Under the pieces are notes generated by a model, which was given only the letters and a program-made list of their open reading frames with translations, ran no database searches and was not told where the DNA came from. 64,000 nucleotides of DNA from Ascidia mentula. Its lineage: Eukaryota > Chordata > Ascidiacea > Phlebobranchia > Ascidiidae. The translations under genes and the position numbers were made by a program. Positions 6,401 through 42,771 of the stretch are shown piece by piece. Location of the stretch: assembly GCA_947561715.1 (NCBI GenBank), contig OX387197.1:11963001-12027000 (forward strand), given 5' to 3'. Position 1 is the stretch's first letter, and each line of letters starts with the position of its first letter.

Positions 6401-9400
6401 ATGCAAGGTTATTTAATTGTTGTAAACATAACTTTTGAAATATTTGCATTGATTGTCATATATCATGTCTACAACATCCTAAAAGAGGGAATGTTGGTGT
6501 AGAATGTAAAATACAAAAATACAACTAGTAATTTCAGCTTTCTTCCTTTTGGTACACATTATTAATAATTGTTGAACAAACTGTTGTGTTTCATTATGTC
6601 ATTTCTTGTTGCCTTGTCCCAAGCCAATTTAAAACAGGTTTACGATCAAATGCATAAGCTGATGGGTAGCAATAGGGTTCGTTAAAAACAAAGACACCAT
6701 TTGCAGCCATAACAAATTACACACCATGTCATAAAATTAAATCAAGCTGTATTTTAAATCAAGTTAAAAGCAGGTTATGTTCAATTATCAAGTAACATTA
6801 AGATTCACAGAAAGTACCATTTGTGTCTTGTGTAGTCATTTTATATGCACCTAAGTTAAATAACTGAACACTGCTTGGTCCGATGTTAAGCCATTGAAAT
6901 AACTGTATTTTCTACAATTTGATTTTTATTCTATATATCTATATATAAGGTTCACAGGCTTCGCAGCCAAGGCAAGTGGGGCGATCCTGCCTTGCTATGC
7001 GAAAGCATGGCATTACTTCTATTCTATATATATTTATGTTTCATTTAATTTCATGTTTCATATTCCAGCTTGTAAAACAACTAAAAAAGATTGATCGAAA
7101 TGCAATTGAGGTTGTAGATTCATTGTACATGTAGTGGTTGTGACTGGGGTCATTGTTTTAAAAATGTAAAACAAAAATTATCTTAATATGTTTTGATGCA
7201 ATTGGGCGCAATTTAGCACAAAATCACAACAATACTTCGCCGCCGGCCTAATTGCTCTCCTCGGGGTGCGTGCACTCGCCAAACTCACATTCACAATGAT
7301 TCACCAATATACAATCATGCGCTACAAAAAAACCAACCAACAAATTGTTGCTGTTATTGTACTTTTTTTGTTTCGTTACATGCACAGTGATTTTTGATTG
7401 TCCTTTCTTTTGTTTTGTCAAATCCACTCTGTAAAACAGGCAAAATTCTTTGCAACATCGACACACCCCAGGGCGGTTTCAGATAACCAATTGCGGTTTT
7501 TACCGTCCCCTTATGAGCCTTTTTTAGGAAGTAAGCAGAAGTTTCATTTGGTATTGTTTTTTTTACGCAGATTTGAGCAACATATTTGAGGCTTTTCTTC
7601 CCCAACTTCTATCATATCCAAACCCAGTAGATCCACTGAATGGAGATGCGGCTGCATTGTACTTGCATAAACGAGACGATTATGAGAAAAAGATCAAGGG
7701 TAACCAACAACTGTATTGTATTGTGTGCAAATTACAAAGAAGCACAAAAATTAACATTGGGAGCCCAAAGCAAGATAGGAGATTTGTGTTTGGTATTTTT
7801 CCATAGAACTGCCACACCCTTAAATTATTTCACTTCTGTGATAAAAACTCATTTTATGGTGGGAAAGTATTTGCATCTGAAATTTGCTATCAATCTTTTG
7901 GGAAAAGTTACCTTGATTTTACATTCGTTTTATGGTTAGCTTTTTGACACATTTAACTAGTGTGATTTACCAGGTAAAGATCTTTGCACTTAGGCTACCA
8001 TGCCCGTTTGTACAAAATTAGGCATGATTTCATTGAAATATGCCTTCTATTTAGAGTAGGTCACAAGGCATTTGTGTCTTTTTCTGTATTGCTACAAAGA
8101 GGCATTGCAGAGGCCACAAAATGCAATTGTTGAATATTATTTCAAACCTGATAAATGTATGAGCAGGGTTATACAAACACATAACACAAATCCCACCCAT
8201 ATGGAGGCCTGACACCAAATTTATCTGCAAGGAAATAAGCATAACATGGGTATATATGAAATTTTACCTAATTATTATGAGGTAGAAATGATTCATAATG
8301 TTTTTCTCAATCAAAAGAATTGGATAATTCGAACCATCACCAATTCCGGTTTATAGCTCTTTTGACATCTCGTATCCCGTATTTGGGCAAATTTTCCTGC
8401 TTTTACTTTGCATTCAAACCACAAAGTATGTTACTAAGAGCTGCAGACAGGTGAACACACTGTTTCGACCTGTAAGGTCTCATCAGTGCATCTTCGACTG
8501 TGGAACTGGGCTAGCTTTTACACTAGCAGGCATACAGATTTCCAGTTTGTGGCATTTTTCTGTCAAAGCTGATCCGTTTGGTACCCAACTGGGTATCCGA
8601 TAGTGATACCGGCTCAGGTTCACCCAATTCATTAAATCAACAGCTGCTGAGACCTTACAGGTCCAAACAGTATGTACACCTGTCTGCAGATCTCAAAAAC
8701 CATGTTACAGTTAAATGTTTATCCATTACAGTTACATTAAATTGTTACTTAACTGTAAAACATTGTAGCATCGAAAGAGTAACCACAATTTATATTGTGC
8801 ATTTGACGTAACAATCAATTCGCTTAATGTTTATTGGGTTATTAGTGGTTTAGAAACAGATATCTTTGGATGATCTGGAACTTTATCTGATCTGGAAAAA
8901 TCAAATCAGGATAACAAATTTCTACATGTACTTGGGCAATGACAACAAGATTTAATTTCAGCTTGAATATTTTGTAGTGTTTTGAATGGTATAAATGCCC
9001 ATTTACTTAATGTTGTCATATCTACAAAAGTGTGACTATCAACATTGCCATCGTTGTGGAAAACAGAAAAAGCCAGCATTTTACATTGTTTTGGGGCAAA
9101 ACACATTGAAAATAAGGACACTTGTGACTAAAAACACAAAACGCCTATAAACAAGGACTCAGTCACAAATATTTACAAATCTAAGAAATAAGGATGGTTG
9201 GTTTTTCTGAGATGTCGACTTTCAAAATTAGGTCAGTAACCCTGACTATGAACATGGAATGAAATCCATAATACCTGTTGGTTTCTATGTCAGACATTTA
9301 TAGTCGAAAACTGAGAAGCACTGATAGTCAGACTTATTGCAAACACAACTAACAAAGAGTAATTTTGTTCCTTCCAGAATATGTCAACCGGTATGCAACA

Positions 9401-15583: not shown

Positions 15584-16427
15584 ATGTCAAAAAATGAATT
15601 TGATCAATTCTTGACAGTAGCAGTGAATAAAACACTTCTGGTGGTCAAATATCTAATAGCAGAGGTAAAAACAATATTTTAAATTTTTATGTCATGTATA
15701 AACAGCCACTATCACTTAACCAAATATAGTTAATTTATTTTCGCCAGCCATTTTTAGCTTTCCAAGATTCTAAACCAAATGAGAGCTGCAGACAGGGTGT
15801 ATACACACACTGTTTCGACCTGTAAGGTCTCATCAGTGCAGCTGTTGATGTGGCACTGTGCTAGCTAAACCAAATATTTTTAAAAACTCCACAATAACAA
15901 AGTTTGGTAGTTATCAGCCCACAACCAAGAAGTTTGTAAATGGTTCATAAATGCATTCATTATTTGCAACCTGGCTTGTGTGCGGAGTAATCTAGATAAC
16001 TTGTGCTTCCTTAAGGTGATTAATACATGCACTCTTCTTTTATGACACAGACAAAAAACGCTTGGAATTCTGAAGATTGGCAGTTACATGTTCTTATCAC
16101 TGAAATTTTTTTTTGTGTGTCAATGATTTGTCTCATTTACCTTGCATGGAGAGTATATGGCAAATCAATAGAAGATTTGCTGTCCCAACGCTGTATCAAT
16201 TCAGGTTTGCACATATTTAAAGTACATCTATCTCATTTACAGTTGGCTAAATTGTTTTATCAAATAAGGCATTTTACTTTGTGATTGTTGTTTAGAAAAT
16301 TCAGACAGAAAAACAAACCTGAGCTTCATTGGGAGGTCTTTGTAAGTATAATAATTTTCAGTAACATTACAATTGGCAGAGATAGAGTTTTTTGTCTTTT
16401 GATAGGTTTGAAAAGAAGTTAAAATAG
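15584..16427 (+). CDS. Small one-pass membrane protein, first gene of the CHMP7 operon
   Basis: Four exons, 15584-15664, 16051-16204, 16296-16341 and 16406-16427, give about 100 residues. One transmembrane segment is clear (VLITEIFFCVSMICLIYLAW), followed by RVYGKSIEDLL. I do not recognise the family; similarity to SMIM-type small membrane proteins is only general. The stop TAG at 16425-16427 is 6 bases before the CHMP7 ATG. Without the last intron the protein would stop at 16342-16344, and the AG at 16404-16405 could then be a trans-splice acceptor for CHMP7. Intron 1 contains the bounded hammerhead element. Confidence 0.65.
15781..15864 (-). mobile_element. 84-base hammerhead ribozyme element with perfect 11-base target duplication
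   Basis: The direct repeat CTAAACCAAAT flanks it at 15770-15780 and 15865-15875. On the minus strand the element carries a complete type I hammerhead: stem I AGCUGCA/UGCAGCU (complements of 15837-15843 and 15784-15790), CUGAUGA (15830-15836), stem II GACCU/AGGUC (15825-15829 and 15817-15821), GAAA (15813-15816), and stem III CAG/CUG extended by GUGU/ACAC. The GUC triplet puts the cleavage site between the complements of 15791 and 15790. It lies in an intron, antisense to the host gene. There is no coding capacity. Confidence 0.9.
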
Positions 16428-40700: not shown

Positions 40701-42771
40701 ACTTGCCTATATTTGGATTTTGATAAATCCCTCCATCCTTGTTGGAAAGTTGATAAGTCAGACACCCACGGTAAAATAGGATGATGATGGGGATCACCAA
40801 ATCTCCGACCTAAAATATGGTGTATTTTATTGCATAATTTTGTTTTTTATGGGCAACCTGTCTAGATTGCTTAATGAAGAATAAATTAGCACATATTCAA
40901 AGACATGCTATTATGCACTGTAAACCCTTACATTTAATATGTGACAAACATACCTGCCAGTTTATTGAGATACATCAGGTAATCGTAGTTTGAAATCTTA
41001 CCACAAATCTAAATATATGCACAAAGTTTGTTTAGTTATTTACCCACTTGCCAAACAATTAAAACTTTTAAAAAAGCATGACAAAATTCAAAATATTTTA
41101 TCACATTATAAAAAATTAATATCATAGTTGTACATTAAATATATGTTGAAAGAAACTTTAAGAAAAAAAAGTAATGAGTGAGATTAGCTCACTAAAAGAA
41201 TCTGGAACTCGCTTGGGCATTGTTTTTCTCTGCGATATAAAATTACTGCAAGTATTACATGTATATCAATGACACAACAAGCTTCGGTTCATATCGTTTT
41301 TATTTGAGTGTTTCTCTATATTTATATTTGCATAAAAATGATAATTAAACGAAGTAAGCAAAATTGATTTTTCCATTTAATATATCAGCTGACATTGTAC
41401 TGAAGCTTGTTGCTCCATTGATATACATGAAGTTATAAGTTATGTTAAGTCAAATGTCACTTTCTGGAATAATAAATGTTCTGAAATATTGTGCAAAAGA
41501 CCCACTTTTTGTGCTGGCATCAATATCGACCAACAAATAAATTACATACGCAAAAGAGTCATAATAATCATTGAGCTGCAATCAGTAGTGCACACATTAT
41601 TAGGATTCATCAGTGCAACTGGTGACTGTAAAACTTTTAAATTACCAATGTTGATCGAACAAACAACAGAGAGTTTGGTGCTACAGTTTTACTTTCTGCA
41701 CCAAATAGTTTCAAAGTTCTTCCAGTGCTACTTATCATCTGCACTGATGAGACCTTATTGGTCAAAACAGTGTGCACTACTGTTTACAGCTCTCACATTT
41801 ATTATCTTTGGGCTGCAGCTCAATGATTGTTACAGCTCTTTTGCTTCTATTTTATTATTTGTATATTTAATGATTCTATTTCAAAAAGCAACTGGCATTG
41901 AAAATGAACAAACCCATTTTTCCAAATTACTGCATATTTCCGTATCCTCATGGTGAGAACATAAATCCTTCTTATAAAGAAATTCTGCAGCTGTAGAATT
42001 TTTATTGATGAAAACATTTGAAGATGATATTATATCATAAAAATCGACTTGAAGCCACTGTCGTGTATCCAAATGTGCCCTTTTCCATGTTAATGGAGTT
42101 AGCTGTTGAAGTGGAAAGCTGTGGCTTACATAAACCATCATCTGTAATACTTGAAGAAGCATGAAGTGAAGCTTTGTTGCAGACTGAAAAAGCATTGCAG
42201 GACTGTACAACAAACCATCTTCAACACTGTAATCAATGTATGGTTTTACAAAATAACATTTCCCTTTAGAACAGAAGGTGGAAATGATAGGCAAGATATT
42301 GACATGGGACACTTCAACAGTGTTTGCTGACTTCAATTTGTCAATTGATGAGGAGTTGGTTTTGTTGTAAGTAATATAAGAATTATCATGTTTCATGTGC
42401 AATTTCAACAACAGCGTTCTCATGTCTTTTAAACACAGCGAATCAAAAAATGAAGAGGTTGACCAATTTTCATTTTTGGGTGCTTCACAAGGATTGTCAA
42501 TAAAAGTTTGTTTCACAAGGTCAATGTCACAAACTGAAATAGACACTTTGACAACTTGTTTTGGAAAAGATTGGCATGAATGATGCAGGAGACTTTGTAT
42601 TTGCAGAGTTGTAAAGTTTTCTAAACAACTACATAACATGACCTCCCCATGCTCAGTTATGCTTGTCAACCAATCATATGAAACAAGTGCAACTACTTCA
42701 TGGTCTGAAACATAACTTAGCAATCTTGGGTCCAATTTCAAGTCTTCTGAAATTTGTTCCATGGTTTGCAC
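34723..42771 (-). CDS. WDR81: WDR81, BEACH and WD40 protein
   Basis: Twenty-four exons: 42771-41914, 41008-40954, 40809-40707, 40459-40280, 40202-40020, 39842-39626, 39565-39512, 39152-39001, 38897-38613, 38539-38338, 38185-37978, 37922-37497, 37441-37332, 37244-37060, 36999-36868, 36809-36743, 36691-36563, 36509-36252, 36194-36068, 35993-35858, 35790-35565, 35462-35284, 35154-34974 and 34908-34723. They sum to 1612 residues (human about 1941). WDR81 acts with WDR91 on endosomal phosphoinositide and in aggregate clearance. The BEACH part shows [85 protein letters not shown] and [21 protein letters not shown]-terminal WD repeats include [24 protein letters not shown] and [13 protein letters not shown]. 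Intron 3 has a GC donor (ATAG|GCAAGT). Confidence 0.95.
41009..41913 (-). other. WDR81 intron 1
   Basis: 900-base intron with one decayed hammerhead repeat on the plus strand at about 41722-41784. The long plus-strand ORF here (41489-41956) has no family resemblance. Confidence 0.6.
41722..41784 (+). mobile_element. Hammerhead repeat, nearly intact core (copy 5)
   Basis: CTGATGA at 41744-41750 is intact. Stem II reads GACC...GGTC (4 bp), the GAAA box reads AAAA, and the 3' side CTGTTTACAGCTCTC differs from the consensus CTGTCTGCAGCTCTC. Probably inactive. Sense orientation is opposite to WDR81. Confidence 0.75.

Follow-up and report, generated by a model that had tools for sequence, protein, structure and literature searches.

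What kind of sequence is the 84-base unit that lies at positions 15781-15864 between two exact 11-bp copies of CTAAACCAAAT, and how did a unit holding a hammerhead ribozyme come to be inserted there? The window, that is the whole stretch of 64,000 nucleotides analysed here (C1:11963001-12027000), belongs to a genome of 195.8 Mb in 79 contigs. The first-pass annotation had supposed a tunicate-like host, and indeed a delta-tubulin frame in the window is nearest to that of Phallusia mammillata (72% identity over 90% of the query), with 58% identity to Ciona, 54% to Clavelina and 46% to Styela. A bounded insertion with a perfect duplication had also been claimed, and this is what the locus contains. 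Its features are as follows.

15770-15780, no strand: target-site duplication (TSD), left copy, CTAAACCAAAT, exact repeat
15865-15875, no strand: TSD, right copy, exact repeat of CTAAACCAAAT
15781-15864, minus strand: truncated single-arm retrozyme copy, with its 3' end (15781) at site A (see below) and its 5' end (15864) at about monomer position 218-220
15784-15843, minus strand: type I hammerhead ribozyme, bounded by the two strands of stem I (sequence motif)
15837-15843 and 15784-15790, minus strand: the stem I strands, AGCTGCA/TGCAGCT, 7 bp
15830-15836, minus strand: CTGATGA (sequence motif)
15817-15829, minus strand: stem II, GACCT/AGGTC, 5 bp
15813-15816, minus strand: GAAA (sequence motif)
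15792-15813, minus strand: stem III hairpin, ACAG..CTGT with an inner GTGT/ACAC, then GTC
15790..15791, minus strand: predicted self-cleavage site, after C 15791 and before T 15790 (hammerhead GUC rule applied to the sequence)

The minus-strand type I hammerhead of the first-pass annotation is thus present with every core letter (core match 15813-15836) and with both stems I and II; the class is assigned by these core letters, whereas canonical hammerheads are defined by stem I loop (loop 1-loop 2) contacts. Folded alone, the 84 nucleotides take the hammerhead as their minimum-energy structure, with a folding energy no better than that of shuffled sequences (z -0.29; 70 of 200 shuffles at least as stable), and when the copy is folded with its flanks a competing minimum-energy fold appears. 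An Rfam search of the window gave nothing at gathering score. With positions 15700-15950 alone, the best covariance match was RAGATH-1-hammerhead (RF03152; 33 bits, E 5e-4, gathering score 56.3), followed by Hammerhead_3 (23.5 bits, gathering score 48.5), so that a covariance search of the region, as the first-pass annotation had proposed, does give hits, in each case below gathering. The 25-base ribozyme core, with at most 2 mismatches, was found at 2569 places in the 196-Mb genome and its reversed pattern at none; the hammerhead is therefore not a chance motif. In a sample biased to exact cores, the core was intact in 33 of 42 distinct rows, and among these 42 rows the stems were conserved and no compensatory pair changes were seen. 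Judged by eye, other subfamilies have a weak outer stem.

We then looked at the family to which these places belong. A 27-base segment lying downstream of the ribozyme in longer copies occurs at 358 places (control, 0), and a 106-base query gave at least 45 matches, from the best 40 of 1799 candidates. Tandem arrays define a unit of about 293 nt (293-299 nt in L071 and L073, 287 in L070), in which no coding capacity was seen and whose GC content, calculated for one unit, is 47%. Relative to this unit, the 84-base piece is a shortened, 5'-truncated copy, running from about position 218-220 round to site A, and not an element of its own. The first-pass annotation had treated the 84 bases as a class of element; this must be abandoned because copies bounded by TSDs come in many lengths, from 27 to 685 bp.

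The window holds further members of the family.

8437-8695, no strand: older inverted-pair copy, both outer ends near site A, with only a 7-bp flanking match
8437-8594, minus strand: arm of this copy, with an intact core at 8463-8487
8636-8695, plus strand: arm of this copy, with a degraded core
41534-41580, minus strand: decayed family arm, 84% identity
41723-41805, plus strand: decayed family arm, 76% identity

The older copy matches Hammerhead_3 with 28.2 bits (gathering score 48.5), and the arm at 41723-41805 is probably the partner of that at 41534-41580. Elsewhere on the contig (C1:3.57-3.62 Mb, L081-L083), repeated blocks of about 4-5 kb with protease-like frames each contain one retrozyme copy, which means that copies have also spread through segmental duplication of the host. 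Similarly, the retrozyme copies of L010, L011 and L012 have a common flank and so represent one insertion copied within a larger segment. We also considered whether ribozymes spaced about 4-5 kb from each other (L081-L084) enclose a longer autonomous element. This found no support, no reverse transcriptase being among the listed frames; the frames in the L081-L083 repeats resemble serine proteases by eye, and L084 contains two of 90 aa or more.

To describe how copies end, one real monomer was mapped onto 90 loci (L002-L091, L001 being a duplicate of the window) and onto the window, positions being numbered from the base that follows the predicted cut. The matches were merged into 95 insertions, and the 67 that were unique and away from locus ends were kept; some of these have flanks in common through segmental duplication, and the loci had been picked by an exact core or an exact tail, which biases the counts of ends and TSDs given below. 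Exact flanking repeats of at least 10 bp were found for 22 of the 67 insertions, compared with 0.6% in a mismatched-flank control that joined flanks of different insertions. The flanking repeats of L012 and L073 proved to be element sequence and were dropped as artefacts, leaving 20 of 67 at this length. With a threshold of 9 bp and the same two removed, TSDs bound 22 of the 67 insertions (control, 1.6%), and it is to these that we refer as TSD-defined insertions; they supply the other bounded copies that the first-pass annotation had proposed to collect, and whose absence it had named as a refutation. The other 45 are without a clean TSD of at least 9 bp, some of them through age, nesting or chaining errors. 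The TSDs measure 9-14 bp (12 bp in 9 of the 22) and contain 78% AT, against 63% in the window.

The 3'-sense junctions of the 22 TSD-defined insertions fall at two places downstream of the predicted cut, site A (about 5-14) and site B (about 35-43). An A end most often reads ..GCAGCTCTC, with or without AT, and a B end ..TTTGCGCATA; the spread of positions is due to bases shared with the TSD and to a subfamily of slightly different sequence. In the window copy, which extends 10 nt beyond the predicted cut, the flanking repeat starts with ATT, which is also how the element's own sequence continues, and the junction is therefore uncertain by up to 3 nt; ATT is the motif that an anole Penelope-like element (PLE) is described as cutting most often (PMC11167929). 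When a real copy that includes the tail (L073:1186-1302) is folded, the hammerhead forms with a stem I that is longer and interrupted, and site A falls inside the interruption.

All 13 inverted pairs with a TSD of at least 9 bp have one A end and one B end, and the 9 remaining TSD-defined insertions are single arms, 6 ending at B and 3, including the window copy, at A. The window copy shows the product in its simplest form, a single arm from A that halted near position 218-220. A wider and less certain set of 29 inverted-type insertions comprised 18 A-B pairs, 2 B-B, 1 A-A (the older window copy at 8437-8695) and 8 with an unclassified end; 18 A-B among 21 fully classified pairs differs from one half with a one-sided p of 7e-4. 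Counts made independently of the choice of loci by core or tail also show both ends: genome-wide, 120 of 163 exact sequences reaching B had no exact or one-mismatch continuation over the next 13 nt, and on C1 and C2 25 of 45 exact sequences reaching A had no exact continuation into the tail (here only exact continuations were scored). No poly-A or simple-repeat 3' end was seen at the junctions of the 22 TSD-defined insertions. These two fixed end sites, the inverted pairs and the PLE signature that they form had no place in the first-pass annotation.

In 20 of the 22 TSD-defined insertions an arm extends back across the ribozyme cut, whereas L045, with 27 bp, and L046, with 38 bp, are not long enough to do so. 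Both end sites are downstream of the cut and the cDNA crosses it, so a monomer severed at this point was not the template; this agrees with the first-pass remark that, with the cut 10 nt inside the end, the inserted RNA is not simply a product cleaved at both ends. The template is possibly a circle or an uncut multimer; L072, a multi-unit copy of 685 bp within one 12-bp TSD, fits either (mir-50 and MIR2680 matches in L072 sit on the inverted-repeat junction and were disregarded). Monomers diverge by 2.4% within one insertion (17 comparisons) and by 2.5% between insertions (916 comparisons, among copies of at least 93% identity), and 50 of the 73 within-insertion differences are private to their insertion. 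Later mutation can therefore explain the divergence, and the comparison leaves circle and multimer undecided.

The way the copies end suggests insertion by Penelope-like machinery. PLEs have inverted pseudo-LTRs, one of them with a 31-bp tail, and TSDs of 9-10 bp (PMC3846280); their reverse transcription starts at two internal sites, the tail being the stretch between them, and both DNA strands are cut and extended, the hammerhead cut being dispensable in vitro (PMC11167929). Such elements are plentiful in the same genome, with at least 150 GIY-YIG places from the best 150 of 382 candidates. At L091 we found an RT domain, with a GIY-YIG domain in the adjoining tandem copy, in a unit of 2870 bp, and on C72 an inverted copy belonging to this PLE family has its two ends at unit positions 1418 and 1450, 32 nt apart, within a 10-bp TSD, GTATAAAATA. 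A PLE of the same genome thus has an insertion anatomy like that of the retrozyme. Its hammerhead-like motif is different and, by eye, minimal, and has no Rfam match.

Several observations accompany these elements. Four more PLE families (L093-L096) have, by eye, minimal hammerhead-like motifs after the EN domain, with no Rfam match, and three of the four have in common a GTGCCAGAAGA stretch downstream of the motif. In L002 (C72:15019584-15022672) a retrozyme inverted pair, which has a 12-bp TSD of its own, and a PLE end with the 10-bp TSD GTATAAAATA are separated by about 0.4 kb; these are two separate insertions. RVT_1 matches were also obtained on the small contigs C15, C21, C49 and C51, in open frames whose lengths range from 3977 to 19197 aa; runs of N or tandem arrays may lie behind these frames.

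We consider it likely that the family is a non-autonomous, non-LTR metazoan retrozyme and that its copies were inserted through reverse transcription of the PLE type, the template being RNA still unbroken where the ribozyme would cut. Tandem copies would be transcribed, and the ribozyme may cut the multimers into monomers. RNA unbroken at the ribozyme site, either uncut or presumably circularised, would be bound in trans by the RT-endonuclease of a PLE, which would nick both strands of AT-rich DNA 9-14 bp apart. Reverse transcription would begin inside the RNA at two places that are separated by about 25-30 nt and lie immediately downstream of the ribozyme, site A giving one cDNA and site B the other. 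If both were kept, the result would be an inverted pair ending at A on one side and at B on the other; if only one were kept, a single arm such as that at 15781-15864. Internal initiation at two sites and cutting of both strands have been demonstrated in vitro for the anole PLE (PMC11167929). Somewhat more tentatively, we lean towards the broader view that animal retrozymes stand in the same relation to PLEs as SINEs to LINEs: PLE enzymes acting in trans from two start sites just 3' of the cut, on intact and probably circular RNA, would have left the A and B ends as their footprint, and the cDNA on one DNA strand would start at a different site from that on the other. Against the trans reading counts the fact that no PLE was found with the start-site sequence of the retrozyme.

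In a different reading of the unit, the 293 nt or so are the pseudo-LTR of an autonomous PLE family and the copies are solo or truncated PLE ends instead of an independent retrozyme. PLE pseudo-LTRs have a similar length, tandem and inverted order, hammerheads and tails, and PLEs abound in this genome; nevertheless, none of the 16 listed GIY-YIG places on C1 lies within 30 kb of a ribozyme-core place on C1 (exact cores only), and the junctions of the five PLE families (L091 and L093-L096, out of an unknown total) have the other, minimal motifs that Rfam does not match as hammerheads. We regard this reading as unlikely.

A SINE-like element moved by a LINE through target-primed reverse transcription, with inverted copies arising by twin priming, would account for the 5' truncation and the TSDs, which are both characteristic of copies made by LINEs, and the genome is rich in other kinds of RT-bearing elements. 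Such a process is hard to reconcile with two fixed 3' ends instead of one, with A paired to B in all the clean pairs, with one outer end of each class in the inverted pairs and with junctions devoid of poly-A or simple repeats, and we hold it to be very improbable. Still less credible is a palindromic DNA transposon (MITE) with a hammerhead that lies by chance in its terminal inverted repeats: many copies are indeed inverted pairs with TSDs, but their outer ends are different positions of one unit, their arm lengths vary, single arms and even the 27-bp tail-only copy have TSDs, and direct tandem arrays exist. Insertion of a retrozyme by PLE-type reverse transcription remains the reading that we prefer.

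How animal retrozymes move has been an open question. PLEs had already been proposed as their movers, mainly from co-occurrence in genomes (PMC7229834, PMC7761336), and PLE-type ends make this proposal testable from sequence, as any retrozyme-bearing genome can be re-read for A and B ends. The rule of one A and one B end also bears on how a PLE insertion is completed, a step that the 2024 in vitro work leaves for validation (PMC11167929).

Animal retrozymes are known from coral, mussel and salamander (PMC7229834), and nine type I hammerhead loci are listed for Didemnum in a tunicate genome paper (PMC8704543). The open-licence literature, for the most part without subscription papers and supplements, contained no report of an ascidian retrozyme and none of a retrozyme with a PLE-type tail or with A/B ends. 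The plant LTR retrozymes are likewise non-autonomous elements with hammerheads (PMC7229834; PMC4918200), but they differ by their LTRs, type III hammerheads, circles of 600-800 nt and 4-bp TSDs (PMC7229834). The metazoan non-LTR retrozymes come much closer, with a small non-coding unit (170-400 nt there), a type I hammerhead, less than 50% GC, tandem copies, TSDs of more than 4 bp and PLEs in the host genome (PMC7229834); of their traits, tandem repeats within 150-450 bp, GC below 50%, TSDs above 4 bp and a type I core are all found here. Circular RNA and cleavage were shown for those elements, whereas the ascidian family is known from sequence alone; the available text of PMC7229834 mentions neither fixed A/B ends nor a tail nor inverted pairs, and the ascidian family has A/B ends. 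The PLEs with tails resemble it in their inverted copies, a tail of about 30 bp between two start sites, TSDs of 9-10 bp, AT-rich targets, partial tandems and a type I hammerhead (PMC11167929, PMC3846280). They encode RT and GIY-YIG, however, whereas the retrozyme unit is without visible coding capacity, and stem III of the retrozyme hammerhead is longer than that of the PLE motifs in this genome. Altogether, the family is a genuine mobile element with a ribozyme, of a kind already known, and its Penelope-type ends are its more interesting feature.
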